Part shown: one piece after another, positions 290 to 40,676 of the stretch
Position numbering within the stretch: the stretch's first letter is position 1
Layout of the letters: every line of letters begins with the position of its first letter
Source of the DNA: Prevotella sp.
GTDB taxonomy: Bacteria > Bacteroidota > Bacteroidia > Bacteroidales > Bacteroidaceae
Length of the DNA: 40,820 bases
Assembly (NCBI GenBank): GCA_017619375.1
Contig: JAFZSL010000019.1
Location: 1-40,820 of the forward strand
Direction: 5' to 3'
Translations under genes and position numbers: made by a program
Notes under the pieces: generated by a model
Databases searched by the model: none
The model's input: the letters and a program-made list of their open reading frames with translations, nothing else
What the model was told of the DNA's origin: nothing

Positions 290-318
290 TATGTCCCTTT
301 AACTCCCCTTTAACTCCT
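290..318 (-). repeat. Short 11-bp tandem array, GAGTTAAAGGG family (2 copies)
   Basis: Read on the minus strand, two AGTTAAA cores sit 11 bp apart. They are preceded by TCAGG and followed by GGGACATAT. The same unit and the same outer borders recur at 22910 (9 copies) and, for the right border, at 27192 (7 copies). It lies just downstream of the leftward serine hydrolase gene. Confidence 0.75.
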
Positions 319-353
319 GAAAGTTGAGTGAATGCGGAACTTGAATTAATCTA

Positions 354-1424
354 TCAAAGCACTGGCAGGAGATATTGCCAGATGAGGTCCATGTAGGGCT
401 GATAGAGCGAGGACGAGGTGGTGAGCACAAGGACGGCATCCTTGTCGGGGAACACCATGATGTATTGTCCTGCGAAGCCGTCGGCACGGAAAGCGTTGTG
501 GCGGCACATCCACATCTGATATCCGTAGCCCTGCACCCATTCATTGTTATCCTTGTTGAGACCTGCTTTCTCCAAGTCCTCGAACCTTGTCCCTGACGGA
601 GCAGAAGGCACCTGGTATTTCGACATTTCCTTCAGCCAGTCGGCAGGGACGATTTGCTTCCCGTTCCATTTGCCTTCTTGGAGGAAGAGTTGTCCCATCT
701 TCGCCATGTCCTCCGTCTTCAACTTCAGTCCCCAACCGCCGCAGTTGATGCCTTGCGGACTCTCTTCCCATTCCGGCTTGGCGATATGAAGAGGTTGGAA
801 GAGGCGTGTGTCGAGGTAGTCGAGGAGTTTCTCTCCCGTCACCTTCTGCACGATGGCAGCGAGCATGTAGGTGCCCACAGAGTTGTAGAGGTAATACTCT
901 CCCGGCTTGTGTGTCACAGGCCATGCCAGGAACCCTTTCACCCAATCCAAGGAGTCTGTATTCTTAGCATTCGGTTCCGTGTCATGGCCGCAAGTCATGG
1001 TGAGCAGGTCGCGCACGGTCATCGCCTTGAGGTTGTCGCTCTGTTCCGCCGGCAGTTTGTCGGGGAAGAAACTCACGACCGGGTCGTCGAGTTTGAGTTT
1101 TCCCTCGTTGATGGCCAGCCCCACGGCAGTGGCGGTGAAGGTCTTGCTGACGGAGAACATCTGGTGTGGCATCTCCGCACTCTGTCCGTTGAACCATTTC
1201 TCGAGCACCACCTTCCCATGTTTGAGTATCATGATGCTGTGAAGGGTGATGGAGTCGGGCTTCACGGGACGTGTCTGTGTAGCATTGACGAAGGAGTCCA
1301 CGGCGGCGACCACCTCAGGAGAGGCATCTGTCCTTGGAAGGTCGATGACATCGACTTCCTTTTTCGCCCTGCAGCCAAACAGCAACAGCATGGCGAGCGC
1401 GAATAACAATGTTGCTTTTTTCAT
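354..1424 (-). CDS. Serine hydrolase lipoprotein, class C beta-lactamase/esterase fold
   Basis: 356-residue protein of the penicillin-binding-protein-like superfamily (Pfam Beta-lactamase, COG1680), which includes esterases, D-aminopeptidases and class C beta-lactamases. A hydrophobic N-terminus ends in a lipobox (LLFGC, Cys18), so it should be a lipoprotein. The catalytic SxxK is Ser91-Val-Ser-Lys94; a YxN motif follows in YLYNSV; a C-terminal HxFxADG stretch takes the place of the KTG triad. I chose the ATG at 1424 rather than 1496 because the signal sequence starts there and the promoter -7 box (1465-1472) lies inside the longer frame. It is monocistronic and divergent from the RG-II operon. 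The substrate cannot be read from sequence, and true beta-lactamase activity is not implied. Confidence 0.9.
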   Translation of the reverse strand: MKKATLLFALAMLLLFGCRAKKEVDVIDLPRTDASPEVVAAVDSFVNATQTRPVKPDSITLHSIMILKHGKVVLEKWFNGQSAEMPHQMFSVSKTFTATAVGLAINEGKLKLDDPVVSFFPDKLPAEQSDNLKAMTVRDLLTMTCGHDTEPNAKNTDSLDWVKGFLAWPVTHKPGEYYLYNSVGTYMLAAIVQKVTGEKLLDYLDTRLFQPLHIAKPEWEESPQGINCGGWGLKLKTEDMAKMGQLFLQEGKWNGKQIVPADWLKEMSKYQVPSAPSGTRFEDLEKAGLNKDNNEWVQGYGYQMWMCRHNAFRADGFAGQYIMVFPDKDAVLVLTTSSSLYQPYMDLIWQYLLPVL

Positions 1425-1464
1425 AAGACAAAAGGTGTAGATGGTGAATGTATGGTATTTGGTG

Positions 1465-1495
1465 CAAAGATAGGAAAAATATTTTACTTTTTCCA
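1465..1495 (-). promoter_or_regulatory. Bacteroidetes-type promoter for the serine hydrolase
   Basis: On the minus strand, TTGG (1492-1495), a 19-bp spacer and TATCTTTG (1465-1472) match the TTTG/TAnnTTTG consensus with one change at -33. This gives a 5' leader of about 35 nt before the ATG at 1424. Confidence 0.75.
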
Positions 1496-1577
1496 AGTTT
1501 GGGCAAAAAAAAACAACATGACAAACATCTTAACTGCTCAGCGAAAACATACTATGATCAAAAAAAAAAGAAAACAT

Positions 1578-1608
1578 TTTGAAGAACCATTTTTTATCAT
1601 TATCTTAG
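1578..1608 (+). promoter_or_regulatory. Promoter of the RG-II enzyme operon
   Basis: TTTG (1578-1581), a 19-bp spacer and TATCTTAG (1601-1608, one mismatch in the -7 box). The start site would be near 1615, leaving a leader of about 90 nt before the ATG at 1705. It is the only such match upstream of the six-gene operon. Confidence 0.65.
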
Positions 1609-1625
1609 CGGCGTGGTAACAATGG

Positions 1626-1643
1626 GTTTCTCCATCGAGAAAC
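1626..1643 (+). other. 5'-leader hairpin of the RG-II operon
   Basis: A 7-bp perfect stem (1626-1632 with 1637-1643) with a 4-nt loop lies inside the predicted leader, 60 nt before the first gene. There is no T-tract. Any regulatory role is speculation. Confidence 0.4.
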
Positions 1644-1704
1644 GTGCCATGACAGATTACATCATTGAAGAATGATGACCATATAAAGAAAGACTGGTCT
1701 ACAA

Positions 1705-5847: not shown

Positions 5848-5885
5848 AACATCCTAATATCTCCTATATCCTCCTAAAATCTCCT
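5846..5885 (+). repeat. 10-bp tandem array, CTCCTAAAAT family (4 copies)
   Basis: Four units of exactly 10 bp start at 5846, 5856, 5866 and 5876, each ending in TCCT. They fill the gap between two operon genes, starting on the upstream stop codon and ending 5 bp before the next ATG. The same family recurs at 40611-40676. Confidence 0.8.
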
Positions 5886-5890
5886 ATAAA

Positions 5891-7227: not shown

Positions 7228-9663
7228 ATGCCCAACGCCACCCACGACAACGACATCGATTGCCTCTTCACCGAGCGTCCTACCATTGGGCAAGTTGCCC
7301 TCGTGCTGCTTATCCTGCTGTCGGCCATGTATGCCGCATCCGCACAGGCCGGCGGCCCCCACAAGTTATGGTATGACCATCCCGCGCAAAACTGGAACGA
7401 GGCCCTGCCCATCGGCAACGGTCGTCTCGGTGCGATGGTCTTCGGCAACGTCGCGGCAGAGCGGCTCCAACTCAACGAAGAGACCATCTGGGCGGGACGC
7501 CCCAACAACAACGCCAACCCCGAAGCCTTGGAATACCTGCCCAAGGTGCGGCAACTGGTGTGGGAAGGACGCTACAAGGAGGCTCAAGACATGGCCACGC
7601 AACACGTGCAGAGCAACACCAACCACGGTATGCCCTACCAACCGTTTGGCGACCTCTACATCCATTTTCCCGGACAAAGCGGATACACCGATTACCGACG
7701 AGAACTCTCCCTCGACTCCGCCGTGGCCGTCACGCGCTACACCGCCGACGGCATCACCTACCAGCGCGAATACATCGCCTCCTTCTCCGGGAATGTCATC
7801 GCCGTCAGACTCACCGCCGACCGCAAGGGCGCCATCACCTGCAACGCCATCCTCACCTCGCCACACGCCGACGTGGCCATCAACAGCGAGGGCGACGAGG
7901 TGACCCTCAGCGGCACCACCTCCAACCACGAAGGACTGAAGGGCAAGGTGACCTTCACCGGACGACTCACCGCCACCGCCAAGGGAGGAAGCATCGCCTC
8001 CAAGGACGGCGTGCTCAGCATCAGCGGCGCCGACGAGGCCGTCGTTTATGTGGCCATCGCCACCAACTTCAAACATTACGACGACATTAGCGGCAACGAC
8101 ACCATCCTCTCCGAAAACATCCTGCGCGAAGCCCTACGGCAAGACTACGGCACGATGCGCCATCAGCACGTCGCACACTACAGGAAATTCTTCGACCGTG
8201 TCGACTTCGACCTGGGTCCCGACCTTTATCCAGAGATGACCACCGACCGCCGGGTGGAGGAGTTCAAAAACCACCAAGACAACCACCTCGTGGAAACCTA
8301 TTTCCAGTTTGGCAGATATCTCCTCATCTGCACTTCGCAGGAGGGCTGCCAGCCCCCCACCCTGCAAGGCATCTGGAACGACAAGATGTTTCCCAACTGG
8401 GACTCCAAATACACCACGAACATCAACTGCGAGATGAACTACTGGCCGGCGGAGGTCACCAACCTCTCCGACCTCAACGCGCCCCTCTTCTCCCTCATCC
8501 GCGATGTCAGCGAGACGGGTCATGAGACCGCCCGCATCATGTATGGCGCCGATGGATGGGTGCTGCACCACAACACCGACATCTGGCGCGTCACGGGAGC
8601 CATCGACAAGGCCCCCTCAGGACTGTGGCCCACGGGAGGCGCATGGATGTGCCAGCACCTCTGGGAGCATTGGCTCTACACCGGCGACACCAACTTCCTT
8701 CGCGATGTATTCCCCATCATGGAAGGCGCGGCGCGCTTCTTCAACCAGACGATGGTGCAGCACACCTTCGACATCGACGGAAAGCCAGAGACCTACTGGG
8801 TGATATGCCCTTCGCTCTCACCTGAAAACCCACACCTCCATGGCGCCAGCACCGCCGCCGGCGTGACGATGGACAACGAACTCCTCCGCGACCTGTTCTC
8901 CCATGTCATCGAAGCCGCCGACATCCTGGGGCAGCCTCTCGCCTTGAAAGACAGTTTGGAGGAGAAACTCGCAGGACTGCCACCCCTTCACATGGGACGG
9001 TGGGGACAGTTGCAGGAATGGCTTGACGACTGGGACAACCCCGACGACACCCACCGACACGTGTCGCACCTCTACGCTATCTTCCCCAGCAACCAAGTCA
9101 CGCCGCTTCACACTCCAAGACTGGCAGAGGCGGCCAAGACCTCACTCATCCACCGAGGAGACCCCTCCACGGGATGGAGCATGGGGTGGAAGGTGTGCCT
9201 CTGGGCAAGACTCCTCGACGGCAACCACGCCTACAAACTCATCGGCGACCAACTCACCCTCGTGCGAACGGAAAAGAAAAGGGGAGGTACTTATTCCAAC
9301 CTCTTCGACGCACACCCGCCATTCCAAATCGACGGCAACTTCGGTTGCACCGCAGGCATCGCCGAGATGTTGCTGCAGAGCCACGACGGCACCATACACC
9401 TGTTGCCAGCCCTACCCGACGCCTGGGAAAAAGGCAGCATGAACGGACTGAGGGCAAGGGGCAACGCCGAGGTGAATATGGAATGGGAAAACGGACAACT
9501 CCGGCAAGCCCGCATCACCTCCCACCATGGTGGGACACTCCACGTGCGCTCCATCACTCCCCTCAAAGGTCCCAAGATGAAGCACACCATGGAACAAGGC
9601 TACCACCTCTATGACATCAAGACAAAAAAAGGTGAGACCATCACCCTGAAAGCAAAACCATAA
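7228..9663 (+). CDS. GH95 glycoside hydrolase, probable RG-II alpha-L-galactosidase
   Basis: 811 residues, the usual GH95 length. The N-terminus has an unusually long polar lead (about 22 residues) before the hydrophobic signal VALVLLILL, ending at AQA. GH95 landmarks: [21 protein letters not shown] at the N-terminus, [10 protein letters not shown], the (alpha/alpha)6 core with [11 protein letters not shown] (about 398-408), and [13 protein letters not shown] near the C-terminus, the regions holding the catalytic Asn/Asp and general acid Glu. GH95 enzymes cleave alpha-L-fucose or alpha-L-galactose. In this RG-II setting the latter (chain A, as for BT1010) is the more likely substrate; that step is inference. 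It begins 5 nt after the esterase stop and is clearly co-transcribed. Confidence 0.93.
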
Positions 9664-9666
9664 AGA

Positions 9667-9702
9667 GCATAAAGGCCTTAAAGTTCTTAAAGACCCTAAA
9701 AA
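9667..9702 (+). repeat. 9-bp tandem array, CCTTAAAGA family (4 copies, intergenic)
   Basis: Units of 9 bp begin at 9667, 9676, 9685 and 9694 in the 52-bp gap between GH95 and GH140. The same unit family is found in frame inside the GH2 gene of this operon at 15661-15714. Confidence 0.78.
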
Positions 9703-9715
9703 AACCACACCAGAT

Positions 9716-11140: not shown

Positions 11141-14100
11141 AGAAAACACATTGGGCCGCCATCCTGGCGACCTGCCTTCTCGCCGCCACAATAGCCTTTG
11201 CCGCCCCGCCGACGAAGAAGAAAGGCGATGGGAAAGCCGCCATCCGCGTCACCGACCTGCGTACGGAGCGCATGACACGCCCCATGAGCATCGACACCCC
11301 CACCCCGCGACTGGGATGGGTCATCAACACCGACAAGAAAGACGTGATGCAAACCGCCTACCACCTCATCGTAGCATCCACGAAGGATAAGGCGGAAGCC
11401 CTTGAGGGCGACCTTTGGGATGTGGAAGAAGCCACCGACCAGTCGCAATGGGTGAGGTATGCCGGAAAGCCCCTGCGGGGAAACACCCGTTGCTACTGGC
11501 GAGTGAAAGTGACCACCACGCAAGGAGAGAGCGATTGGAGCGACGTCGCGATGTGGAACGTGGGACTGCTCACCGAGGCGGAATGGCAGGGACAGTGGAT
11601 CGGCTACGACCACGCCATGCCGTGGGATGTCGAGGAAGAACACAGCCAACTGAGCGCTCGCTACCTGCGCACCACCTTCGACACCAGCGATGGCATACGG
11701 CAGGCCACCCTCTACATCAGCGGATTGGGCATGTATGAGGCTTTCATCGATGGGAAAAAGATAGACCTCGATGTCAACGGAAGCCGACAGGTGCTCGCCC
11801 CCTGCCCCACCGACTACCGCAAGACCGTGCTCTACAACGCTTTCGATGTCACGGAGGAATTGAAAGGAACCACCCACGCCCTCGCCGTGGTGTTAGGCAA
11901 CGGTCGCTACTACACCATGCAGCAGAACAAGAAACCTTATAAAATCAACCAGTTCGGCTATCCCAAACTGCGCGCCAACCTCATCATCGAATATGCCGAC
12001 GGCAAACGGAAGGTGGTGTCCACCAACGACAAATGGAAAATCAACCTCGACGGTCCCATCCGCAGCAACAACGAATATGACGGAGAGACCTACGACGCGA
12101 GGAAGACCCTGGACGGATGGACATCGCCCGACTACGACGACAGTGCATGGGGCAATGCCGAACGTGTGGCCATACCCACCGGCACGCTCAGGGGCGCCAT
12201 GACACCCAACATGACCATCGCCAAGGTCATACAACCCAAGGCCATGGAGCGGAAAGGTGACAACGTGGTGGTGGACATGGGGCAGAACATGGCGGGATGG
12301 CTCGCCATCAACATCAGGGAGGCCCACAGCGGAGACACCATACGCCTCAGATTCGCCGAAAGGCTCGACTCCACCGGCAACATCTGGGTGGAGAACTTCC
12401 GACACGCCTGGAGCACCGACACCTACATCGCCAACGGAAAGGAGAACGGCACGATCTGGCGACCCACCTTCGTCTACCATGGGTTCAGATACGTGGAGGT
12501 CAGCGGACTGCGCCAAGCGAATCTCTCCGACTTCACCGGAGAGGTGGTGGAAGACCAGATGGCGGTCAGCGGCACCTTCGCCACCACCGACACCATCCTC
12601 GCCAAGGTGTATCACAACGCCACATGGGGCGTGAGGAGCAACTACAAGGGGATGCCCGTCGACTGTCCGCAACGCGATGAGCGGCAACCGTGGCTCGGCG
12701 ACCGCACACGCGGCTGTTACGGCGAGGCCTTCCTCTACGACAACCAAAACCTCTATGCCAAATGGGTGCGCGACATCGCGGAGGCACAGCGGGAGGACGG
12801 CTGCATCCCCGACGTGGCCCCTGCCTTCTGGAACTACTACTCCGACGACGTCACCTGGCCCGCCGCCCTGCCCATGGCCCTCGACATGCTCTACAGGCAC
12901 TATGGCAACGACGCCCCCATGCGTGCCTTCTATCCCAATGTGAAACGGTGGATGGAACACCTCAAATACCAATATCAAAAAGAAGGCCTCATCACCAAAG
13001 ACAAGTATGGCGACTGGTGCGTGCCACCAGAGGAAGAACACCTCATCCACAGTGAAGACCCTGCCCGCATCACCGACGGCACACTCATCTCCACCGCCTA
13101 CTACCACCGCATCTGCAACATGATGAAGGAGTTTGCCGAACTACAAGGGTTCAAGGCAGATGCTGCCTATTTCGAGGAAGAGGCCGCCCTTACCAAAAAA
13201 GCATTCAACCAGAAATTCCTCACTTTGAAGAAAGGCACCACCAACGTGCCGGGACACATCCTCTACCCCGACAGCACGTTTTATGGCAACAACACCGTCA
13301 CAGCCAACCTCCTGCCGCTCGTCTTCGGCATGGTTGACGACGACTACGTCAAGGAGGAAGTGGGGAAGAACATCGTCAAAACCCTCATCAACCAAAACTT
13401 AGGCACCGTCACCTGCGGAGTCATCGGCATAGGATGGCTCATGCACGGACTCACCGACATGGGACGCACAGACCTCGCCTGGCTCCTCGCCACCAACAAG
13501 AAATACCCCAGTTGGGGATACATGGCCGAACACGGCGCCACCACCATCTGGGAACTATGGAACGGCGACACCGCCAGTCCGGCGATGAACAGCGGCAACC
13601 ATGTGATGCTCCTCGGCGACCTCCTCTCCTGGCTCTATGAGGACGTGGTCGGCATCCAAGCCGCCACACCGGGATTCAAGAAGATACGTTTTCAACCCGA
13701 CTTCTCCGTCGATGAGATGGACGACATCGAGGGCACTTACCAATCCATATACGGCAAGATAGGCAGCAGGTGGAAGAAGGAAGGCGGCCGACTCTTCTGG
13801 CATGTAGAGGTTCCTGCCAACACCACCGCCACGGTGTGCCTGCCGAATGGCGAGATGCGAGAAATAGGGTCGGGCGCCCACGACTTCACCTGCGACCTGC
13901 CCCGACGCGGCCCGCAAGTGGTGACTGATGAGTTCCTTTACAAGAAAGCCTCCTTCCCCGAATGCCATTCCGCCAGCATCGTGGAGACCCGCAAGGGCGA
14001 CCTCGTGGCCACCTATTTCGGAGGCACCAAGGAACGCAACCCCGACGTATGCATCTGGGTGAGTCGCAAACCCAAAGGCAAGAGCGAATGGACGGCTCCG

Positions 14101-14880: not shown

Positions 14881-14890
14881 AAACAATAGG

Positions 14891-14926
14891 AATAGTCCAA
14901 CCAATCCGATTACTCCGACCACTCCG
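14891..14926 (+). repeat. 9-bp tandem array, ATTACTCCG family (4 copies, intergenic)
   Basis: Four 9-bp units start at 14891, 14900, 14909 and 14918 in the 59-bp gap between GH78 and GH2. The last two match the array at 23010-23180 and the intragenic array at 31061-31123. Confidence 0.75.
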
Positions 14927-14939
14927 AAAAAAAGTCATC

Positions 14940-17618
14940 ATGAAGAAAACCATCCTCCCACTTCTCATTCTGCTTTTGGCCGCCCGCGCCGCGGCACAAC
15001 CCGTCTCCGTGGCAGGTTTCTTCCCCTTGGAAGACGCAGGGCGCATCGTCTTCAACTTCAACGAAGGATGGCGTTTCATGACGGGCGATGTCGCTCACGG
15101 CGAGACCGTCACCCTCGACGACTCCTCCTGGCCCGTGGTCTGCGCACCCCATACCGTGCGTCTGGAGCCCTCGGAGGCCAGCGGCTGCCGCAACTACCAA
15201 GGCGTCTGCTGGTATCGCAAGCATTTCACCATGCCACAGGAGATGGAAGGCAAGGAAGTGACACTGCACTTCGAAGCGGTGATGGGCAAGCAGCGCGTCT
15301 ATGTCAACGGCAGGTTGGTGAAAGAGCACCAAGGAGGTTACCTGCCCATCATCGTCAACCTCAACGACCTCGGAGTGAAGGCCGGCGACGACTGCCTCGT
15401 CGCCCTCATGGCCGACAACAGCGACGACAAGGACTACCCTCCGGGAAAGAAGCAGACACAACTCGACTTCGCCTATCACGGCGGCATGTACAGAGACGTG
15501 TGGCTCATCGGCAAGTCATCGCTTCACATCACCGACCCCTTGGAATACGACAACGTGGCTGGCGGCGGTGTCTTTCTCCATTACGACAACATCAGTGAAG
15601 GGAGTGCCGATATCTTCATCGACGTCGAGGTGTGCAACAACAGCGAGCAGTCGGAAGAGTCATTAAAGTCATTAAAGTCCTTAGGGTCCTTAAAGACCCT
15701 AAAGACCTTAAACCCCACCATCGAGGCGCGAGTGAAAGACCATGACGGCAAAGTGGTGAAAACCATCTGGCAGAAAGTGGCAATGCCCGAGGAGATGCCA
15801 GGACTGATGTGCACCGCCACCCTCACCGCCACCTTGAAGAACCCCCGTCTTTGGTCGCCAGAAGACCCTTACCTCTATGACGTGGAGGTAAGAATCTACG
15901 ACGAGAAGCGATGCGTGGACGGCGGCATGGTGAGGATGGGCATCCGCAAGGCGGAATTCAAGGGCAAGGATGGTTTCTGGCTCAACGGCAAGCCCTACCG
16001 CCAACTCGTGGGCGGCAACCGCCACCAGGACTTCGCCTACGTGGGCAATGCCTTGCCCAACAGTCAGCAATGGCGTGACGCCAAGCGGTTGAAGGAGGCG
16101 GGCATGAACATCATCCGTGTGGCCCACTATCCGCAAGACCCGGCGTTCATGGATGCCTGCGATGAACTGGGACTCTTCGTCATCGACGCCACGCCGGGAT
16201 GGCAGTATTGGAACAAAGACCCGGAATGGGGAAAGAAGGTGCATCAAAACACCCGAGAAATCATCCGCCGCGACCGCAACCACCCCTGCGTGCTGATGTG
16301 GGAACCCATCCTCAACGAGACACGTTATCCGAAGGAGTTCGCCCTCGAGGCCTTGCAAATCACACGGGAGGAGTTCCCCTACCCCGGTCGTCCCGTGGCG
16401 GCAGCCGACATGAACTCCGAGGGTGTGAAGGATAATTACGACGTGCTGTATGACTGGGCGGACAACATCGGCAAGACGACACTCGACACCGACAAGTGCA
16501 TCTTCACCCGAGAATGGGGAGAGTATGTGGACGACTGGTATGCCCACAACGCCATCAACAGGGCGGCACGAGGCTGGGGGGAACAAGCCATGCTCACCGC
16601 CGCCCTCTCCCTCGCCGACACCTACGGCATGATGTTCAAGGGAAGGAGGCAGTTCATCGGCGGTTGCCAATGGCATCCCTTCGACCACCAACGGGGCTAC
16701 CACCCAGACGCCTACCTGGGTGGAATATACGATGCCTTCCGTCAGAAGAAATACGCCTTCGAGGCTTTCAGGGCGCAAACAAGTCCTGTTTCTCAGACGG
16801 AGCAGAGTAATCTGACGGAGTCGACGGAGCCGATGGTCTTCATCGCCCATGAGATGACACAATACTCGGGAGGCGACGTCGTGGTGTTCAGCAACTGCGA
16901 CAGCGTGCGGCTCACCGCCTTCGAAGGGGCGAAGACGGCCACCCTGCCCGTGACGCACCCCAAGGACGGTACGCCCAACGCCCCCGTGGTGTTCCAAGGT
17001 TTCTGGGACTTCTGGCAGGCACGTGACTTCAGTTACAGTCAGCGCAACTGGCAAAAAGTGTCGTTGCTGGCCGAGGGCATCATCGGCGGCAAGGTGGTGT
17101 GTACTGAGAAGAAGATGCCGGCACGTCGCAGCACCCGCCTGCGCCTTTATGCCGACGAGATGGGGAAGCCCCTCGTGGCCGACGGCAGCGACTTCATCGT
17201 GGTGGTAGCCGAGGTGACCGACGACAACGGCAACGTGCGGCGCAACGCCCGCGAGCATGTCACTTTCACCGTCGAGGGAGAGGGTGCCGTCATCGGCGAC
17301 GAGAGCATCATGGCCAACCCACGCTTAGTGGAATGGGGCAGCGCTCCCATCTTGGTTAGGAGCACCCACCAGGCAGGCATGATACGCATCATCGCCAAAC
17401 CCACTTTCGAGGGCACCTACGCCCCCGCCGCCGACACCTTGGTGATAGAGAGCGTGCCGTACACGGGGCGCATGTGCCACCGCGACACACCCGTCGTCAA
17501 AGTTTCAGACTACAGGGCAACGTCCACGCCCCCAAACGCGGCCATCTCTGAAGAGGAGCGCCGCAAGAACCTCGAAGAGGTGGAACAGCAGCAACAAGAA
17601 TTCGGCATCCAAAAATGA
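14940..17618 (+). CDS. GH2 exo-beta-glycosidase with two in-frame repeat insertions
   Basis: 892 residues, signal peptide 1-19. GH2 layout: sugar-binding jelly roll (about 40-195, with YRKHFTMP and YHGGMYRDVWL), Ig-like domain (about 200-335), TIM barrel (about 340-610) and C-terminal beta domains. The acid/base is Glu460 in the NE pair of ILNET, and the nucleophile is most likely Glu525 in FTREWGE. Both are present, so it should be active. GH2 covers beta-galactosidases, glucuronidases and galacturonidases; in RG-II loci GH2 enzymes remove uronic acids of chain A, so that is the favoured guess. Residues 241-258 and about 618-632 are encoded by 9-bp tandem repeats, inserted in the Ig-like domain and just after the barrel. 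Last gene of the operon. Confidence 0.87.
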   Translation: MKKTILPLLILLLAARAAAQPVSVAGFFPLEDAGRIVFNFNEGWRFMTGDVAHGETVTLDDSSWPVVCAPHTVRLEPSEASGCRNYQGVCWYRKHFTMPQEMEGKEVTLHFEAVMGKQRVYVNGRLVKEHQGGYLPIIVNLNDLGVKAGDDCLVALMADNSDDKDYPPGKKQTQLDFAYHGGMYRDVWLIGKSSLHITDPLEYDNVAGGGVFLHYDNISEGSADIFIDVEVCNNSEQSEESLKSLKSLGSLKTLKTLNPTIEARVKDHDGKVVKTIWQKVAMPEEMPGLMCTATLTATLKNPRLWSPEDPYLYDVEVRIYDEKRCVDGGMVRMGIRKAEFKGKDGFWLNGKPYRQLVGGNRHQDFAYVGNALPNSQQWRDAKRLKEAGMNIIRVAHYPQDPAFMDACDELGLFVIDATPGWQYWNKDPEWGKKVHQNTREIIRRDRNHPCVLMWEPILNETRYPKEFALEALQITREEFPYPGRPVAAADMNSEGVKDNYDVLYDWADNIGKTTLDTDKCIFTREWGEYVDDWYAHNAINRAARGWGEQAMLTAALSLADTYGMMFKGRRQFIGGCQWHPFDHQRGYHPDAYLGGIYDAFRQKKYAFEAFRAQTSPVSQTEQSNLTESTEPMVFIAHEMTQYSGGDVVVFSNCDSVRLTAFEGAKTATLPVTHPKDGTPNAPVVFQGFWDFWQARDFSYSQRNWQKVSLLAEGIIGGKVVCTEKKMPARRSTRLRLYADEMGKPLVADGSDFIVVVAEVTDDNGNVRRNAREHVTFTVEGEGAVIGDESIMANPRLVEWGSAPILVRSTHQAGMIRIIAKPTFEGTYAPAADTLVIESVPYTGRMCHRDTPVVKVSDYRATSTPPNAAISEEERRKNLEEVEQQQQEFGIQK
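15661..15714 (+). repeat. 9-bp tandem array inside GH2 (6 copies, CCTTAAAGA family)
   Basis: Six consecutive 9-bp units (15661, 15670, 15679, 15688, 15697, 15706) encode a Ser/Thr-Leu-Lys type tripeptide repeat (SLKSLKSLGSLKTLKTL). The unit and even the sequence CCTTAAAGACCCTAAA match the intergenic array at 9667-9702. The frame is preserved because the unit is three codons. Confidence 0.88.
16791..16835 (+). repeat. Second 9-bp tandem array inside GH2 (about 5 copies)
   Basis: Degenerate 9-bp units start at 16791, 16800, 16809, 16818 and 16827. The core GAGTAATCTGACG reads as the reverse complement of the ATTACTCCG/TCAGATTACTC type, so this is that family in opposite orientation. It encodes a Ser/Thr/Glu-rich linker (QTEQSNLTESTEP). 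Confidence 0.65.
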
Positions 17619-17657
17619 GGACCATCTTCAAATCTCTTAGTTTGCACAGCAGCCAAT

Positions 17658-17690
17658 AAGTCACCAACAAGTCACCAACAAGTCACCAAT
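17658..17690 (+). repeat. 11-bp tandem array, AAGTCACCAAC family (3 copies)
   Basis: Units start at 17658, 17669 and 17680, with a decayed fourth at 17691 and an ATCACCAAAAAG echo at 17711. It lies between the GH2 stop and the trp promoter. I see no terminator for the RG-II operon in 17619-17722. Confidence 0.78.
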
Positions 17691-17722
17691 AAGTAGACAA
17701 ATGAAAAAAAATCACCAAAAAG

Positions 17723-17923: not shown

Positions 17924-17954
17924 GATGCATTCATTAACAAAATCATACAAAGAC

Positions 17955-19160
17955 ATGGGTAAATATCAAGTCAACAAAGACGGTTTCTATGGAGAGTTCG
18001 GCGGAGCATACGTTCCCGAAATCCTCTACAAGTGCGTTCACGACCTCCAGGAAGCCTACCTCCCGATTATCGAGTCGGAAGAGTTCAAATCCACCTACCA
18101 CGCCCTGTTGAAAGACTATGTGGGACGCCCGTCACCCCTCTATTACGCCCAGCGAATGAGCGAGCGTTACGGTTGTCAGTTGTATCTGAAACGCGAGGAC
18201 CTCAACCACACGGGGGCGCACAAGATCAACAACACCATAGGACAGATTCTCTTGGCGAAACAGATGGGCAAGACACGCATCATCGCCGAGACAGGCGCCG
18301 GACAGCATGGCGTGGCCACTGCGACGGTCTGTGCACTGATGGGCATGCAATGCGAGGTGTTCATGGGCGCCACCGATGTGGAGCGACAACACACCAACGT
18401 GGAACGCATGAAGATGCTCGGTGCAGAGGTCCATCCCGTCAGAACGGGCAACATGACTCTCAGCGACGCCTGTTCGGAAGCCATCCGCGACTGGTGCTGC
18501 CACCCTCAGGACACCTTCTACATCGTAGGGTCGACCATGGGTCCCCACCCCTACCCCGACTTGGTGGCGAGGATGCAGAGCGTCATCTCCGAGGAAATCA
18601 AATGGCAGTTGCAGGAGAAGATCGGCCGCGACCACCCCGACTACCTCATCGCCTGCATCGGAGGCGGCAGCAACGCAGCCGGCACCATCTACCACTACAT
18701 GGATGACGAACGGGTGAAAATCGTATTGGCAGAGGCCGGAGGACACGGTTGGGATACCGACCACACCGCAGCCACCATCCACCGCGGCAGCGTAGGCATC
18801 CTTCATGGAGCCAAGATGCTGGTGATGCAGGACAACGACGGCCAGATAGAGGAAGCCTTCACCATCTCCGCTGGTCTCGACTACCCCGGCGTGGGGCCCA
18901 TGCACTGCAACATGGCAAAGCAAGGCAGGACGCAGGTGCTGAGCATCAACGACAACGAAGCCATCTACGGCGGTTACGAACTGACCCGTATGGAGGGCAT
19001 CATCCCGGCGATAGAGTCCGCCCATGCCATAGCCGCCCTGAAGAAACTGACATTCCAGCCCGACGACGTCATCGTGCTCACCGTGAGCGGACGCGGCGAC
19101 AAAGACGTGGAAACCTATCTGAAGAACAAACAAATGGCAAAAGAATATGGAAACTTCTAA
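17955..19160 (+). CDS. trpB: Tryptophan synthase beta subunit
   Basis: 401 residues, normal for TrpB1. It condenses indole with L-serine using PLP, as an alpha2beta2 complex with TrpA. PLP lysine Lys90 lies in HTGAHKINNT; the phosphate-binding GGGSNAAG loop and ETGAGQHGVA are intact. I chose the ATG at 17955 (MGKYQV): the TTG at 17922 and ATG at 17925 lie in or next to the attenuator T-tract, and the shorter start matches the N-terminus of Bacteroides TrpB. First structural gene of the operon, as usual in Bacteroidales; its last 14 bp overlap trpE. Confidence 0.97.
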   Translation: MGKYQVNKDGFYGEFGGAYVPEILYKCVHDLQEAYLPIIESEEFKSTYHALLKDYVGRPSPLYYAQRMSERYGCQLYLKREDLNHTGAHKINNTIGQILLAKQMGKTRIIAETGAGQHGVATATVCALMGMQCEVFMGATDVERQHTNVERMKMLGAEVHPVRTGNMTLSDACSEAIRDWCCHPQDTFYIVGSTMGPHPYPDLVARMQSVISEEIKWQLQEKIGRDHPDYLIACIGGGSNAAGTIYHYMDDERVKIVLAEAGGHGWDTDHTAATIHRGSVGILHGAKMLVMQDNDGQIEEAFTISAGLDYPGVGPMHCNMAKQGRTQVLSINDNEAIYGGYELTRMEGIIPAIESAHAIAALKKLTFQPDDVIVLTVSGRGDKDVETYLKNKQMAKEYGNF

Positions 19161-22139: not shown

Positions 22140-22880
22140 ATGCACGACATCTTGCAGGAAATCATCGCACACAAGGAGAAAGAGGTGGCGGAGGTGTACG
22201 CCAAGAAAATCTCGCTCCGCGAAGCGTTGCTCAATAGTGAGACGGGCATCATCGCCGAGTTCAAACGCCGCTCGCCCTCGAAAGGATGGATAAAGGAAGA
22301 CGGTCGTGCTGACGTGATACCCCTCTCCTATCAGCAGAACGGGGCGGCAGCCCTCTCCATCCTCACCGATACGCATTTCTTCGGAGGTTCCGACGACTTC
22401 ATCCGCACGGCACGCCGCTCCGGCGTTACCATCCCCGTGCTTTACAAGAATTTCGTCATCGACGAGGCGCAATTGTATGCCGCCTCACTCTGCGGTGCTT
22501 CTGCGGTGCTTCTCATCGCCGCCTGCCTGACGAAGGCACGGTGCAAGGAACTCATTGGCAAGGCCCATGACCTGGGTCTGGAGGTGCTGTTGGAGATGCA
22601 CGCGGAACATGAACTGGAATATGCGGAGTTGGAACCCGACCTCTGCGGCATCAACAACCGCAACCTCGGTTCGTTTGTCACAGACGTGGAAAACAGTTTT
22701 CGACTGGCAGAGCGACTACCAAAAGACACGGTGAAGGTCAGCGAGAGCGGCATCTCCAATCCCGACACCGTCAATGCGCTGCGCGCTGCTGGCTTCCGTG
22801 GCTTCCTCATCGGCGAAAACTTCATGAAGACCCCCGACCCGGGACTGGCATTGCAAGAATTTATCAGAAAATTGAAATGA
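22140..22880 (+). CDS. trpC: Indole-3-glycerol phosphate synthase
   Basis: 246 residues, the length of a single-domain IGPS. It closes the indole ring on CdRP. AEFKRRSPSKG (Lys42 region), VLYKNFVIDEAQ, LLEMHAEHELEYA, INNRNLGSF and VSESGI are the standard motifs. There is no C-terminal PRAI domain, so the TrpF step is not provided by fusion. A GTG at 22131 is an alternative in-frame start. After its stop, trpF would normally follow in Bacteroidales; tandem arrays lie there instead. Confidence 0.96.
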   Translation: MHDILQEIIAHKEKEVAEVYAKKISLREALLNSETGIIAEFKRRSPSKGWIKEDGRADVIPLSYQQNGAAALSILTDTHFFGGSDDFIRTARRSGVTIPVLYKNFVIDEAQLYAASLCGASAVLLIAACLTKARCKELIGKAHDLGLEVLLEMHAEHELEYAELEPDLCGINNRNLGSFVTDVENSFRLAERLPKDTVKVSESGISNPDTVNALRAAGFRGFLIGENFMKTPDPGLALQEFIRKLK

Positions 22881-22909
22881 TTAAGTTTCGAATTCGTTTA
22901 ACTATCAGG

Positions 22910-23008
22910 AGTTAAAGGGAAGTTAAAGAGGAGTTAAAGGGGAGTTAAAGAGGAGTTAAAGAGGAGTTAAAGGGGAGTTAAAGGGGAGTTAAAGGGGAGT
23001 TAAAGGGA
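22910..23008 (+). repeat. 11-bp tandem array, AGTTAAAGGGG family (9 copies)
   Basis: Cores AGTTAAA start at 22910, 22921, 22932, 22943, 22954, 22965, 22976, 22987 and 22998, a perfect 11-bp period. The left border reads TCAGG and the right border GGGACATTA. It lies inside the trp transcript, between trpC and trpA, and is followed with no gap by a second array of a different family. Confidence 0.95.
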
Positions 23009-23009
23009 C

Positions 23010-23180
23010 ATTACTCTGATTACTCTGATTACTCTGATTACTCCGATTACTCTGATTACTTCAATTACTCTGATTACTCCGATTACTCCAATCACTCCGA
23101 TTACTCCGATTACTCCAATTACTCCGATTACTCCAATTACTCCGATTACTTCAATCACTCCGATTACTCCAATTACTCCA
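23010..23180 (+). repeat. 9-bp tandem array, ATTACTCCG family (19 copies)
   Basis: Nineteen consecutive 9-bp units run from 23010 to 23180. They vary only at a few positions (ATTACTCTG, ATTACTCCG, ATTACTCCA, ATTACTTCA, ATCACTCCG). This is the largest array in the window and ends 15 bp before the trpA ATG. On the minus strand it is open in one frame as a Gly-Val-Ile repeat, which I regard as fortuitous. Confidence 0.95.
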
Positions 23181-26750: not shown

Positions 26751-27179
26751 TCACCCCGCGGTGATATTGAAAGCATATGTCATATAGATGCCCAACTTGA
26801 GTGAATAGTCGAAATCACCCACTTGGTTCCAAGGAGCGTTGTAATAGCGCACCTCTTTCAACATGACATCGTTCTTGTCATAGTATTTCTTGGAAACGAT
26901 GCGATAGGTGAGCAACGGTTCGTCATACTCATAGAGCACTTCAGCCCTTACGGGTTTGCCGATTACGCCATCGCGTTTTGCATCTTTCTTGCAAACTTTC
27001 ATGGCCTTGTAGTCATAACGCACCCATAACAGGTAGTTGCTGCGCAAGCGGTCGACACAGTCGCTGGCATTCACCACCATCGTATCATTTTCCACCACTG
27101 CCTTGAATGTTTTCACCTGTGCGAATGTCGCAACATTGCACAACATCATCAAAAACAAAGAAACAAACAATTTTTTCAT
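26751..27179 (-). CDS. Small secreted protein, unknown function
   Basis: 142 residues. A clear signal peptide (MKKLFVSLFLMMLCNVATFAQ) predicts export. The mature part is beta-rich with many Tyr, Lys and Asp residues, two Cys (about 42 and 63), and a C-terminus ending FNITAG; no conserved domain is recognised. It stands alone. Its upstream region is remarkable: a 7-copy 11-bp tandem array begins 13 bp before the start codon, so the array occupies the 5' leader. No promoter consensus is visible beyond the array. Function unknown. Confidence 0.75.
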   Translation of the reverse strand: MKKLFVSLFLMMLCNVATFAQVKTFKAVVENDTMVVNASDCVDRLRSNYLLWVRYDYKAMKVCKKDAKRDGVIGKPVRAEVLYEYDEPLLTYRIVSKKYYDKNDVMLKEVRYYNAPWNQVGDFDYSLKLGIYMTYAFNITAG

Positions 27180-27191
27180 TTTTAAAAAGGG

Positions 27192-27268
27192 AGTTAAAAG
27201 GGAGTTAAAAGGGAGTTAAAGAGGAGTTAAAAGGGAGTTAAAGAGGAGTTAAAGAGGAGTTAAAGGGA
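27192..27268 (-). repeat. 11-bp tandem array abutting a start codon (7 copies)
   Basis: AGTTAAA cores on the plus strand begin at 27192, 27203, 27214, 27225, 27236, 27247 and 27258, an exact 11-bp period. The array ends with GGGACATAT like those at 290 and 22910. It lies immediately upstream of the leftward gene starting at 27179, so in that transcript it reads as repeated TTTAACTCC. Confidence 0.95.
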
Positions 27269-27336
27269 CATATGTCTGTTTGTTATGGGAGTTTAAGGAA
27301 CGATTGTCAAACAAGTTGAATGCATAGTCATTTTGT

Positions 27337-30633: not shown

Positions 30634-31647
30634 TCAATTAACCGCCAACAGATAACCGGGAATCAATGCAGCGGCAAGGAGGCCGAAGGCAAGCCCTTCC
30701 CTCCCTTCCAACACCATATTGGCCAGATAGAGCGTGACTGGCATCGTGCAGTTGATCATGAAAATTCCCGTCAAGAGTATCGCAAGGTTCGTCCCACCTA
30801 CGATGAAACACACCGCCACCAATACCAAGACGACCACCATCGAAGGCACGATGCCGAACCACTTGGCCAACCATCCCCCCGCCATCTTTCCAAGCATCGC
30901 AATGGCCCCCATGAGCAACACCACCACCTGGGTCTTGTGGACGCCGGCACTTGAAGAAAAAATCTCACCTGTAAAGGAACGAAACAGCACGAAAGCCACC
31001 AAAGCCACCATGGACAACAGCACAAAGCCCATGCCATGACGCGAAGCAGGCTTCGCACCTCTCTGAACATTCTGAAAACTCTGATTTTCCTGATTACTCC
31101 GACCACTCAGATTACTCCGACCATCCATGTTCACATAGGCCATGGCCAACAGGCACAAGACCAACAGAAACACTTGGAGGAAACCCCATGAATGAAACAC
31201 CACACCCAAGGAAAGGCCCAAGGCGCCGGTGGAAACAAACACACCCATGGCCGGCATATCGTTGCCATGGGTGACGACAGTCTGTTTGCCACCCCACACA
31301 TGGAAGAGGGAATTTCCCAATCCCAGCAAGACCGCTACGGCTAACATTCCCACTCGTGGGGTTTTCACCGCCACAACCAGCGATGCTGCGAGAACTGCCA
31401 AGGCAAGAAACGACAGGGATACAAGCAGCACCCAATGGCGCCGTTGCAACCTATCGACCAGCATCCCCGTGAACGGCTGTGTCATGAAAGCAAGGACGTT
31501 GTAGGTGAGGAACACGCCCACGAGACCACCGAGACAGGATGCTTCAGCCATCAGGTAAAGGCAACACACACAAAGGCCATCGACCAACAGGTGCATGGCC
31601 GCACTGAGACCCAACATCATCCCCGGATGCTTCAGAGTGGATGGCAT
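30634..31647 (-). CDS. MFS-type transporter with a repeat-encoded central loop
   Basis: 337 residues from the ATG at 31647 (a start at 31707 would overlap the upstream stop). About 11-12 membrane helices in two halves; FMTQPFTGMLVDRLQRRHW in the first half matches the MFS loop 2-3 region. The substrate is unknown. Residues about 175-196, the cytoplasmic loop between the two halves, are encoded by 9-bp tandem repeats and are polar (GRSNLSGRSNQENQSFQ). The insertion keeps the frame and sits at the most tolerant place of the fold. It is last but one in the leftward operon. Confidence 0.8.
   Translation of the reverse strand: MPSTLKHPGMMLGLSAAMHLLVDGLCVCCLYLMAEASCLGGLVGVFLTYNVLAFMTQPFTGMLVDRLQRRHWVLLVSLSFLALAVLAASLVVAVKTPRVGMLAVAVLLGLGNSLFHVWGGKQTVVTHGNDMPAMGVFVSTGALGLSLGVVFHSWGFLQVFLLVLCLLAMAYVNMDGRSNLSGRSNQENQSFQNVQRGAKPASRHGMGFVLLSMVALVAFVLFRSFTGEIFSSSAGVHKTQVVVLLMGAIAMLGKMAGGWLAKWFGIVPSMVVVLVLVAVCFIVGGTNLAILLTGIFMINCTMPVTLYLANMVLEGREGLAFGLLAAALIPGYLLAVN
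31061..31123 (-). repeat. 9-bp tandem array inside the MFS gene (about 7 copies)
   Basis: Units start at 31061, 31070, 31079, 31088, 31097, 31106 and 31115. ATTACTCCG and ACCACTC units match the intergenic arrays at 14891-14926 and 23010-23180. In the gene it forms the central cytoplasmic loop. Confidence 0.85.
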
Positions 31648-36463: not shown

Positions 36464-37627
36464 TCATTTTTTCAACTCAATCCTGAACGTAGTGCCTTTT
36501 CCTACTTCGGAACTCTTCACATAAATCTTTCCCTTGTGGTACTCCTCCACAATTCTCTTGGCAAGCGACAAACCCAACCCCCACCCTCTTTTCTTGGTAG
36601 TGAAGCCCGGGGTGAACACGTTGCGCAAATCTTTTTTCTTGATACCCTTGCCCGTATCCGTGACATCGATGACGACCTTGCCTTCCAACCGCTCAAGATG
36701 AAGGGTGATGGACCCTTCTCCTTCCATCGCATCGACGGCATTCTTGCAAAGGTTTTCAATCACCCATTCAAAGAGTGAAGGGTTGATGTCGGCAATGACG
36801 TTCTCTTCTGGCAGCTCGGTGTGCATTACCACCTTGGCTGAGGTGCGACGGTTCATGTATTCCACCACATGCCCCATCACATCAGAGAGATTCGTTGGAG
36901 TGAGTTCGGGCATCGAACCGATTTTAGAGAATCGGTCAGCAATGAGTTGTAGACGCCGCACATCCTGGTCCATTTCTGGCAGCAGGTCATCGTCGGGATA
37001 GGTTTCCTTGAGGATTTCCGTCCATGCCATCAGACTCGAGATGGGGGTTCCCAACTGATGTGCCGTTTCCTTCGACAACCCCACCCACACCTTGTTTTGC
37101 TCCGCTCGCTTGGAGGTGAGCAAGGCGAAGATGGCCACCACGACAAACACCATGACAATGCCGAGTTGGATGTAGGGCCAAGAATGCAAGCGCTTGATCA
37201 TGACGGAGTCGTCGTAGCACACATAGATGAAATCGTCCGTGCCATTCTCATCAAGGTAAATCTTGACAGCGTTGCCGGCCTTCAACATGGATTGACCCTT
37301 TTCCGCCGCGCAACGCATGCTGTCCTCATAGTCCTTGCCTTCCAAACTGATGTTGCGGAAAGTGCTGGCCTCCCCATCCTTGTCCAATACGATGACGGGG
37401 ATGGTGTTGTTGCCGTCGATGACCTTGAGCACAAGATTGAGGTCTGTGTTCTCGTCGGCGTTGTTGAGCGAACGCATGGCTTCAGCCCACACCTCCATCT
37501 TGTGCCTTTCCTCGATGGAGAGGTCACGCACAAGGTATTGGGAGATGAAGAGCGAGGCCACGGAGATGAGCACGGCGGCCACGACGAGGATGATTTTCAC
37601 CTGTCTGATCCTATCTGTCCATTGCAT
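36464..37627 (-). CDS. Sensor histidine kinase (orphan)
   Basis: 387 residues. TM1 about 10-30, an extracytoplasmic sensor of about 120 residues with no named domain, TM2 about 151-171. The H-box is KETAHQLGTPISSL with phospho-acceptor His190. N-box NLCKNAVDAMEG, G1 DTGKGI, F-box FTPGFTTK and G2 GLGLSLAK are all present, so the kinase should work. The H-box has QLGTP where HELRTP is usual, a variant common in Bacteroidetes kinases. No response regulator is adjacent and I see no promoter. The signal is unknown. Confidence 0.9.
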   Translation of the reverse strand: MQWTDRIRQVKIILVVAAVLISVASLFISQYLVRDLSIEERHKMEVWAEAMRSLNNADENTDLNLVLKVIDGNNTIPVIVLDKDGEASTFRNISLEGKDYEDSMRCAAEKGQSMLKAGNAVKIYLDENGTDDFIYVCYDDSVMIKRLHSWPYIQLGIVMVFVVVAIFALLTSKRAEQNKVWVGLSKETAHQLGTPISSLMAWTEILKETYPDDDLLPEMDQDVRRLQLIADRFSKIGSMPELTPTNLSDVMGHVVEYMNRRTSAKVVMHTELPEENVIADINPSLFEWVIENLCKNAVDAMEGEGSITLHLERLEGKVVIDVTDTGKGIKKKDLRNVFTPGFTTKKRGWGLGLSLAKRIVEEYHKGKIYVKSSEVGKGTTFRIELKK

Positions 37628-37737
37628 GGGCTTGATGGTCTGTTAAACTCCAAAGACTCCGTTTTTCCGGTAAAGGAAACCGGTTGTTCCTTGAAACAAT
37701 GTAAAAAGACGAATCACTTATCCCATTGATAACGGAC

Positions 37738-39123: not shown

Positions 39124-39138
39124 GGGCCTGAGGAATGT

Positions 39139-39900
39139 TTAGTTGTTCAAAATCTTGTCAGGGTCGAAATAACGCTTACGGTCGATTTTCTGCTTGTGCA
39201 TCGCCTTGATTTCAAAGGGGAAGTCACCCAACTTCTCATCCTTGATGATCACTTTCATATTCACTCTGGCGAAGAACTTTTGCAAGGTGATGATATCGGC
39301 ATCTTTCAAGCGGATGCATCCCTCGCTGGCACGTCCCGGCACGCTCTCGGCATTGTTGGTGCTGCCATGGATGCCTATGCCGCTATGCCCTGGTGTCACC
39401 AACCTGAGGAACCAGTTGCCATAAGCTTTGATGTTGCCACGGCCATCCTTGAAATCATGGCGCCAAGTGGAAGCGTCCTGAATTTGGGAGATGTAGAAGG
39501 CATTAGCGTAGGCATTGGCGAAGGTTTTCATGATGTTGCAGCTGCTTGGTGTTTTCTTGTCACCTCGTTTCTGCTTGTTGCCCACGTGCTGGCCGAAGCA
39601 ACAGTCGAAACGTGCCAGCAAGACGGTGTCGGCACCTTGATCCTCATACACATAAAGATAATAATCCTTTTTCGATATGACGATGAAACATTTGGAGCGG
39701 TCTTTCATCAAACCATCAAAGACAAGACTCTCGTCTGACTCTGTTCTGACACAAGTATTGCCATGGTCATTCACCTTTCTCTCCTCCACATTGGTGGAAT
39801 AGAGGAAAGGACTGTAGTCACCTTTACCTTTTTGTTGGGCTTGTACGACGCCAAACATCATCGTGGCAAGCGTCGCTAATAAAATAGTTTTCGTTTTCAA
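39139..39900 (-). CDS. L,D-transpeptidase (YkuD domain), exported
   Basis: 253 residues, signal peptide ending near VQAQ (residue 21). The YkuD catalytic signature is complete: His178 in IGIHGST and Cys195 in GRASEGCIRL. These enzymes make 3-3 peptidoglycan cross-links or attach proteins to the wall, in the periplasm. There is no LysM or other binding domain, so substrate targeting must come from the catalytic domain or partners. It lies 35 nt after the SH3 protein gene. Confidence 0.92.
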   Translation of the reverse strand: MKTKTILLATLATMMFGVVQAQQKGKGDYSPFLYSTNVEERKVNDHGNTCVRTESDESLVFDGLMKDRSKCFIVISKKDYYLYVYEDQGADTVLLARFDCCFGQHVGNKQKRGDKKTPSSCNIMKTFANAYANAFYISQIQDASTWRHDFKDGRGNIKAYGNWFLRLVTPGHSGIGIHGSTNNAESVPGRASEGCIRLKDADIITLQKFFARVNMKVIIKDEKLGDFPFEIKAMHKQKIDRKRYFDPDKILNN

Positions 39901-39935
39901 TTGACAGTTGCTTTTGAGTGTTTATTGAATGTAGG

Positions 39936-40520
39936 TCACTCCACCAAATAGGTGAATTGCTTTGACATATAATATTTCTTTCCTTGATATACCACTTGAT
40001 ACCAGTCTCCATCCTCACCGACACATTCCAGTTGGGTGCCTTTTTTCACCGACTTGGTGGCACCTTTCTCATCCTTGAGGTAGTTGGCTTTCAAACTGGG
40101 TCCAAAACGAAGGCGGACACCTTCGCCATTGACCACCACGCGCTGGGATTTCTTGGCATCATACACCACCTTTCCGTCATTCTTGACCTCTTCCTCAGGC
40201 ACCTTCACCTTCGTGGTGTCGGGCGCCTGTTCCTCGTCTTCGACGTACGATTTCATGGAGCTATAATGATAGATGCCTCCTAAAATGAGCAACAAGACAA
40301 GGAGTGCGATGATATAGAAGAGAAGCTTCTTGTCGCCACTTGGACGAGGAGATTTAGGAGTCTGTATCGGCTCATCCTTTTCCTCCTCCTTCTCAGGGGC
40401 AGCGACGTCTTTTTCCTCAAGAACTTCCTTTTGTTGGAACTGCTTGATAGACAAGCCACAATAAGGGCAGAGGTTAGCGTCGTATGGAATCTGCTTCCCG
40501 CAATGTTGACACGTAATCAT
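39936..40520 (-). CDS. Zinc-ribbon, single-pass membrane protein with external SH3b domain
   Basis: 194 residues. N-terminal zinc ribbon CQHCG...CPYCG (residues about 4-21), an acidic Lys/Glu linker, one membrane helix (about 66-84, LLFYIIALLVLLLILGGIYH), a second acidic linker, and a C-terminal SH3b-type domain (about 125-194: VVNGEGVRLRFGPSL, GDWYQVVYQGKKYYMS). The ribbon faces the cytoplasm and the SH3b domain the periplasm, where it may bind peptidoglycan; the next gene is a cell-wall cross-linking enzyme. The ATG at 40520 is chosen because the promoter -7 box overlaps the longer start at 40544; 40529 is the only other option. Confidence 0.78.
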   Translation of the reverse strand: MITCQHCGKQIPYDANLCPYCGLSIKQFQQKEVLEEKDVAAPEKEEEKDEPIQTPKSPRPSGDKKLLFYIIALLVLLLILGGIYHYSSMKSYVEDEEQAPDTTKVKVPEEEVKNDGKVVYDAKKSQRVVVNGEGVRLRFGPSLKANYLKDEKGATKSVKKGTQLECVGEDGDWYQVVYQGKKYYMSKQFTYLVE

Positions 40521-40541
40521 AATTCTCATTTGTATGGAAAG

Positions 40542-40572
40542 CAAAGGTAAAACAATTTTTCCAAATGAGAAA
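40542..40572 (-). promoter_or_regulatory. Promoter of the SH3-L,D-transpeptidase-Gate operon
   Basis: On the minus strand, TTTC (40569-40572), a 19-bp spacer and TACCTTTG (40542-40549). The start site would be near 40535, leaving a leader of only about 15 nt and fixing the start codon at 40520 or 40529. Confidence 0.75.
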
Positions 40573-40610
40573 AAGCCAGTCGCAAAAATATGTTAAGGGA
40601 TAGAAAATAG

Positions 40611-40676
40611 AAGCCTCTCCTAAACCCTCCTACTTGCTCCTAAAAACTCCTTTTCGCTCCTAAGACCTCCTATCCC
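40611..40676. repeat. 10-bp tandem array, CTCCTAAAA family (6 copies)
   Basis: Units start at 40611, 40621, 40631, 40641, 40651 and 40661 (partial seventh at 40671); each ends in CTCC. Same family as 5846-5885. It lies just beyond the terminator of the rRNA operon. The rest of 40573-40690 shows nothing else. Confidence 0.82.

Follow-up and report, generated by a model that had tools for sequence, protein, structure and literature searches.

The short tandemly repeated repetitive (STRR) sequences of cyanobacteria constitute families of heptamer tandem units located at many intergenic sites. Intergenic repeats of bacteria are usually ascribed to slippage or to transposon debris. Here we analyze the short-unit tandem arrays of a Prevotella sp. 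contig (JAFZSL010000019.1, assembly GCA_017619375.1), hereafter the window, which is the whole contig of 40,820 bases from a genome of 4.26 Mb in 78 contigs, and whose genes include glycoside hydrolases, trp genes, MlaE-type transport and two GTPases. Three further described systems are close to these arrays. BrickBuilt of Porphyromonas gingivalis is a miniature inverted-repeat transposable element (MITE) with an internal minisatellite of 23-nt units (PMC4596501, in the sections drawn on here). TAACTGA direct repeats occur in marine Beggiatoaceae, Cyanobacteria and some Bacteroidetes and have been proposed as the binding site of a post-transcriptional regulator, and the long simple sequence repeats of Mrazek et al. 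2007, with units of 5–11 nt, form a class defined by length (both as told in the relevant parts of PMC4679880). Among the matches listed for the open-licence literature, no paper on the present arrays in Prevotella was found.

Taken together, our data favor a two-layer account, in which slippage makes the copies, a MITE-like element spreads one of the families and selection keeps the cores of the units; we give this account, as a whole, an even chance of being right. Part of the family with 11-bp units lies in a non-autonomous MITE-like element, the 10-bp family has a constant core, and most array positions are shared by the species compared, with altered copy number. In one genome, a family carried by a transposon-like element thus stands beside families whose cores persist at gene borders as linkers and copy number change, which makes the short repeat arrays of a common gut genus a simple, testable case of selection and advises caution in strain typing and in the automatic annotation of untranslated regions in such genomes.

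Arrays were detected with Tandem Repeats Finder (score 30 for the window list) in a sample of 440,820 bases, made up of the window and 20 stretches taken at fixed steps from three large contigs (400 kb), where genes were called with a simple codon-usage script. Counting all periods up to 60, score 40 yielded 113 arrays in the sample versus 12 in a single dinucleotide shuffle, used as chance control, and score 50 yielded 76 versus 1. The initial annotation had described a dispersed set of arrays whose unit families recur at unrelated loci with fixed periods of 9, 10 or 11 bp. These essentials hold, as all 12 listed arrays were recovered at or near the positions given, 8 of them reaching score 40, numbers exceed chance, and recurrence at unrelated loci is borne out by unit listings and phased hexamer counts. 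The four weaker arrays (9657, 14896, 16814 and 31061) are backed because sister species show related arrays or residue-length differences there; it should be kept in mind that arrays can be misassembled in draft genomes. Each recurrent unit keeps its own fixed period in the phased hexamer counts (11 for GTTAAA and AACTCC, 10 for CTCCTA, 9 for AGTAAT and CCTTAA, 7 and 14 for ATTGAA, 12 for GTCACA), and among all hexamers of the sample TTCAAT, counted as ATTGAA, tops period 7 with 27, the next hexamer having 7. The three periods first noticed are confirmed, but 7, 12, 14, 18 and 20 occur in the sample too. Helical phasing as a general cause was rejected, since the recurring units have periods of 7, 9, 10, 11 and 12. 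The arrays resemble long simple sequence repeats, as told in PMC4679880, in unit size, in runs longer than chance (the 113 versus 12 above) and in coding multiples of three (31 of 38 coding arrays here); cores, linkers and dispersal by a MITE form no part of that account as told there.

The 11-bp unit consists of TTTAACTCC plus two variable bases, and the corresponding pattern with up to 3 mismatches has 231 matches in the genome, its reversed control none. The arrays of this family share the end CATAYGTCCCTTTAACTCC (94 genome matches with up to 2 mismatches; reversed control 0), and several element copies, with ends of the TTCAAGTTCCGCA type, could be aligned over ~150 bp around the array. 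A 14-base pattern of the element end gave 23 matches with up to 1 mismatch versus 1 for the control, and pairing of ends 60–600 bp apart within these 23 loci yielded nine two-ended elements of 142–244 bp, with 13-bp ends at most 2 mismatches from the reference end. Exact target duplications of 8–10 bp accompany seven of the nine, each end being allowed to shift by 2, and none was seen in the other two (L146 and L151; L-numbers denote stretches or loci, G-numbers genomes). Terminal inverted repeats, target site duplication and a short body without its own transposase gene are all present, as in a MITE. The initial annotation saw no transposase, and we likewise found no transposase domain in 10 proteins from seven end loci, some of which are chance pattern matches inside genes, the search being confined to these proteins. 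The remark of the initial annotation that it knew of no described mechanism is not borne out as stated for this family, which lies in a MITE-like element, a minisatellite MITE having been described in another Bacteroidales species (PMC4596501). As presented in the sections of that paper used here, BrickBuilt resembles the present element in its Bacteroidales host, intergenic location, inverted ends and variable unit number inside a mobile-like element, and in a unit that mixes conserved and non-conserved sites. The two differ in the unit, of 23 nt and another sequence there and 11 nt here, and in the duplications, found there in 3 of 4 cases and of varying length. The array in the trp spacer (22908–23007), which has kept one end, is read as a remnant of the element.

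The strongest separation between core and linker is found in the 10-bp family, in which CTCCTA is followed by a 4-nt linker that drifts while the core stays constant. An unlikely alternative is that of neutral variable number tandem repeats produced by replication slippage, with selection acting on reading frame only. If the arrays were purely slipped copies, all positions of the unit would vary alike, which is not what the 10-bp family does, and the same cores recur at unrelated loci. Close to CTCCTA, this hexamer is the one repeated at +10 (15 in the sample; the next, TCCTAT, 3), and 48 of 51 CTCCTA triplets in the own genome have both gaps at exactly 4 when gaps of 1–9 are allowed (control 0). 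Adjacent linkers were compared in a scan of named genomes with a pattern that fixes the core and leaves the linker free. Of its 77 stretches, 35 were named Prevotella or Prevotellaceae and 48 Bacteroidales. Identical adjacent linkers made up 63 of 156 pairs in 49 Bacteroidales-type loci, among them one Bacteroidetes bacterium without named order, versus 77 of 80 pairs in 28 other loci, a group that includes Myroides and a Saprospiraceae bacterium (Bacteroidota outside Bacteroidales); loci often share a genome. In the own genome only 3 of 30 pairs were identical (arrays of at least 3 cores; of 51 matches, 30 loci were kept, with 13 such arrays). Outside the Bacteroidales-type loci the pattern is thus nearly always a perfect repeat, just as plain slippage predicts, and slippage would also fit the copy numbers that differ between sister species at the same spacer and the one 9-bp family that lacks a core. 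The earlier view that slippage is insufficient was partly right, given the constant cores and drifting linkers of the 10-bp family. At the end of the 5848 array, comparison with G065 (one spacer) showed differences at 0 of 18 core sites and 3 of 12 linker sites. Other tests agree to a varying extent: by phase, CTCCTA accounts for 15 of 148 and other phases for 0–2, TTCAAT for 27 of 262 and others for 4–7, the hexamers of TTTAACTCC for 20–28 and others for 3–8, and ACTCCGA is clear in the sister stretches (19–20 versus 0–3). A column scan, noisy and with over-extended array ends, counted 12–24 changes in core columns and 33–40 in linker columns of the 10-bp family.

Neither outcome that the initial annotation named as speaking against its proposal was observed, namely array numbers no higher than chance, or positions all conserved and invariant across distant relatives. 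We compared spacers per gene pair in the window and one further 20 kb stretch, L071, with two sister species, G065 and G216, which are largely syntenic with the window (81–91% identity over long matches; estimated contamination 7 and 10%). One genome per species was used, so that copy-number comparisons are between species; family identity was judged by eye, one doubtful gene call was set aside and an MFS-like gene was added by hand. Eight own array spacers have an orthologous spacer in both sisters, and the family is kept in both at five of them (window 5848, 9664 and 14881; L071 4923 and 7249), in one sister at another (window 22881, G216) and in neither at two (window 27150, L071 9365). Copy numbers vary, for instance 3.5, 2.9 and 8.0 at 5848, so that positions are mostly kept but not invariant, and few genomes of the wider genus carry the families. 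For 10 array-free window spacers an orthologue was available in both sisters, and none of them had a flagged array there, two of the ten being ≤20 bp and too short for the repeat finder. The three array-free spacers of L071 that have orthologues in both sisters gave a mixed result, with no sister array at 17943, a 10-bp array in G216 (5.5 copies; weak by eye in G065) at 18345, and at 12865 a spacer >1.4 kb longer in the sisters with other arrays inside. The convergent spacer at L071 4923 contains a terminator-like hairpin followed by two oppositely oriented arrays in all three species.

These positions bear on a second alternative, improbable in our estimate, in which every family would descend from one of several decayed elements of MITE-like or hairpin type that each carried an array, and the cores would be former transposase-binding sites. 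It holds for part of the 11-bp family, 7-bp arrays adjoin a dispersed hairpin sequence in several spacers, and, of 69 intergenic arrays, 12 are accompanied by an inverted partner within their spacer at score 11 (1.6 when flanks are swapped) and 13 at score 9 (4.8 when swapped). Against it, 13 cases of the 10-bp family share no common flanks by eye, except two beside the hairpin of the window rRNA end, and, unlike recent insertions, most arrays occupy the same position in the related species.

The unit families are rare across the wider genus and specific to certain lineages. With up to 1 mismatch, the 11-bp pattern was present in 4 of the 40 genus genomes sampled (own 281 matches, G043 58, G047 6, G019 3); G065 and G216 lay outside this sample and both match the 11-bp part of the window many times. 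The 10-bp pattern was found in 12 of 299 genomes, with 48 matches in the own genome, 36 in G216, 11 in G065 and 1–3 in nine others. Array density in three other members of the genus (400 kb) was not far lower, at 15.8, 17.1 and 20.7 versus 25.8 per 100 kb, in line with plain slippage, but periods 9 and 10 together account for 22 of the 62 intergenic arrays of the own stretches versus 1 of 48 in those three genomes, which speaks against it. Lineage-specific families that recur at unrelated sites, together with trp spacer units that differ among the three species, could also be explained by a unit-copying system that seeds and homogenizes arrays through templated synthesis or gene conversion. 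Such a system, close to the active seeding first proposed, appears very improbable to us: the 11-bp part of the trp spacer is accounted for by the MITE-like remnant, linkers of the own genome are not homogenized (the 3 of 30 pairs above), and no candidate enzyme was found, none having been searched for.

A period of 22 bp is seen in 17 of 48 intergenic arrays of the three other genus members and in 2 of 62 own ones. Many of these loci have their own core, some palindromic, with a variable linker, and lie amid longer spacers (L285:6348-6427, L288:5921-6006, L296:13036-13118, L297:2479-2526, L300:5983-6064 and L302:16527-16588).

Arrays are most frequent in convergent spacers (16 of 29), compared with 31 of 165 tandem and 6 of 29 divergent ones (convergent versus divergent, Fisher p 0.014). 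The 10-bp core is sense-oriented in 23 of the 30 tandem spacers whose neighbours are known, a count that leaves aside 14 of 53 arrays of the named-genome scan (neighbour unknown or in a gene) and six own loci, and the 11-bp arrays are sense in 21 of 26 pattern loci but in 3 of 6 in the sample. A transcript-sense motif was considered as a candidate and is weakened both by the negative GC skew on the coding strand (every one of the 11 two-kb steps between 2,001 and 24,000, a region whose called genes are on the plus strand) and by the highest enrichment falling in convergent spacers. As far as PMC4679880 describes them in the parts concerned, TAACTGA repeats likewise form many short intergenic direct-repeat sets of one motif with a patchy taxonomic distribution; they differ in having a plain 7-nt unit placed mostly right before start codons, whereas here a core with drifting linker, several families and periods, and top enrichment in convergent spacers are observed. 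The TAACTGA unit itself was found in none of the 113 sample arrays.

In the two-layer account that we prefer, transposition would scatter the MITE-like element with its 11-bp units, as its ends and duplications suggest, and units would be gained and lost after insertion. The second layer would comprise the 10-bp family (CTCCTA plus 4-nt linker), the 9-bp families (ACTCCGA or ATTACTC plus 2 nt) and the 7-bp family (TTCAAT plus 1 nt), whose arrays are often older and sit in fixed gene–gene spacers, a visible pattern with a presumptive cause. Copy number there would change presumably via slippage or unequal exchange, and the cores may be under purifying selection, with a putative nucleic-acid-binding factor recognizing their multiple copies close to gene ends and to operon junctions. 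That cores are kept at gene borders suggests a reason for their maintenance. A bolder proposal, tentative and more doubtful than probable, is that the two-part units (CTCCTA + 4, ACTCCGA + 2, TTCAAT + 1, TTTAACTCC + 2) constitute lineage-specific, fixed-pitch binding-site arrays, which a dedicated system that binds DNA or RNA sequence-specifically would read at many gene borders of this Prevotella-type clade, with different cores and pitches (e.g. 22 bp) in the other clades of the genus.

Several observations weigh against the two-layer account. No binding factor, transposase or autonomous parent was found, the proteins checked being the 10 from seven end loci, and the element explains part of the 11-bp loci, with 94 array ends against nine two-ended copies. 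Arrays of the CCTTAAAG type lack a core/linker split (column scan, five arrays), and the column split is modest for the 11-bp and ATTACTC types. The phase test is weak for the 10-bp family in the sister stretches (CTCCTA 6, CCTCCT 5) and mixes linker change within arrays with that between arrays; since it cannot separate the two, we put more weight on the adjacent-linker and +10 hexamer counts. The reversed 10-bp control has 15 matches in G216 and 10 in G112, besides 1 each in G075 and G139, so that CTCCTA is not the sole core with period 10. The strand bias of the 10-bp core may come from a C-rich coding strand. Finally, units within an array are of common descent and many loci come from the same genome, so that the tests overstate independence.

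The features of the window are the following.

193..345, plus strand: MITE-like element with 13-bp inverted ends TTAAAGTTCCGCA ... TGCGGAACTTGAA, flanked on both sides by TTAATCTAT (9-bp duplication) and alignable with other copies.
295..317, plus strand: 11-bp array CCCTTTAACTC, 2.1 copies, inside the full MITE-like copy 193..345.
5852..5886, plus strand: 10-bp array, CTCCTA core plus 4-nt linker, filling most of a 43-bp intergenic spacer; family also in both sisters.
9657..9700, plus strand: 9-bp array of CCTTAAAGA type in the GH95/apiosidase-like spacer, score 39; sister copies 10.2 and 6.2; not flagged when its own spacer, 9664-9715, is scanned alone.
14896..14927, plus strand: 9-bp array of CTCCGACCA type in the rhamnosidase/GH2 spacer (14881-14939), score 36; sister copies 3.1 and 5.1.
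15658..15712, plus strand: in-frame 9-bp array in the GH2 gene, encoding SLK/TLK repeats.
16789..16840, plus strand: weak in-frame 9-bp array in the GH2 gene, score 33; both sisters have 9 additional residues here.
17653..17694, plus strand: 11-bp array CCAACAAGTCA, 3.8 copies, downstream of the GH2 gene; the spacer has a counterpart in one sister only (2,178 bp), with no array flagged.
22883..23011, minus strand: 11-bp array (22908-23007) with one inverted end, upstream of trpA, read as a MITE-like remnant.
23010..23179, plus strand: 9-bp array ATTACTCCG, 18.9 copies; trpA starts 17 bp past the array end.
27185..27274, minus strand: 11-bp array with CATATGTCCC end, absent from this spacer in both sister species.
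31061..31123, minus strand: in-frame 9-bp array in the MFS-like gene, encoding RSN/RSD repeats (finder rows 31061 and 31096); length varies in the sisters.
40617..40672, plus strand: 10-bp array, CTCCTA core with differing 4-nt linkers, beside a 5S rRNA gene; found as a 20-bp double unit.

Within genes, arrays persist chiefly where the period preserves the reading frame, as had been proposed: in the sample, periods divisible by 3 were found in the 31 of 38 coding arrays already mentioned versus 25 of 70 intergenic ones, and at the GH2 and MFS-like arrays of the window the species differ by whole residues. The narrower statement that intragenic arrays are 9-bp and in frame is true of the window (15658-15712, 16789-16840 and 31061-31123) but only a tendency in the sample, and 9-bp arrays also lie between genes (9657, 14896 and 23010). 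Similarly, the listed 10- and 11-bp arrays are intergenic, but a perfect 11-bp repeat of 2.3 copies lies within a coding stretch at 22489-22513.

Some minor observations concern the surroundings of the arrays. The 40617 array lies directly downstream of a partial 5S rRNA gene (40728-40820, minus strand) at the contig end, and a 10-bp array adjoining the hairpin of the window rRNA end also occurs at two other own loci (L173 and L192). In the 27150-27336 spacer, both sisters lack the 27185 array and carry instead another dispersed sequence, of the AGCAGACCAAGCTTGCTT type; this dispersed hairpin adjoins 7-bp arrays at about L064:18735-18805, L065:7828-7888 and L073:18710-18751. Intergenic mosaics of several repeat modules, with many joints at CAGACATACGTCCC-type sequence, were seen at L076:18149-18514 and in L086–L088. 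RNA folding showed no excess in the trp spacer (z -0.2) and was strong in three inverted pairs chosen for their high score (z -4.1, -9.4 and -4.8). At L064:18650-18740, a near-perfect hairpin between convergent genes (folding z -9.4) has arms that are 7-bp arrays mirrored around a GC-rich loop.

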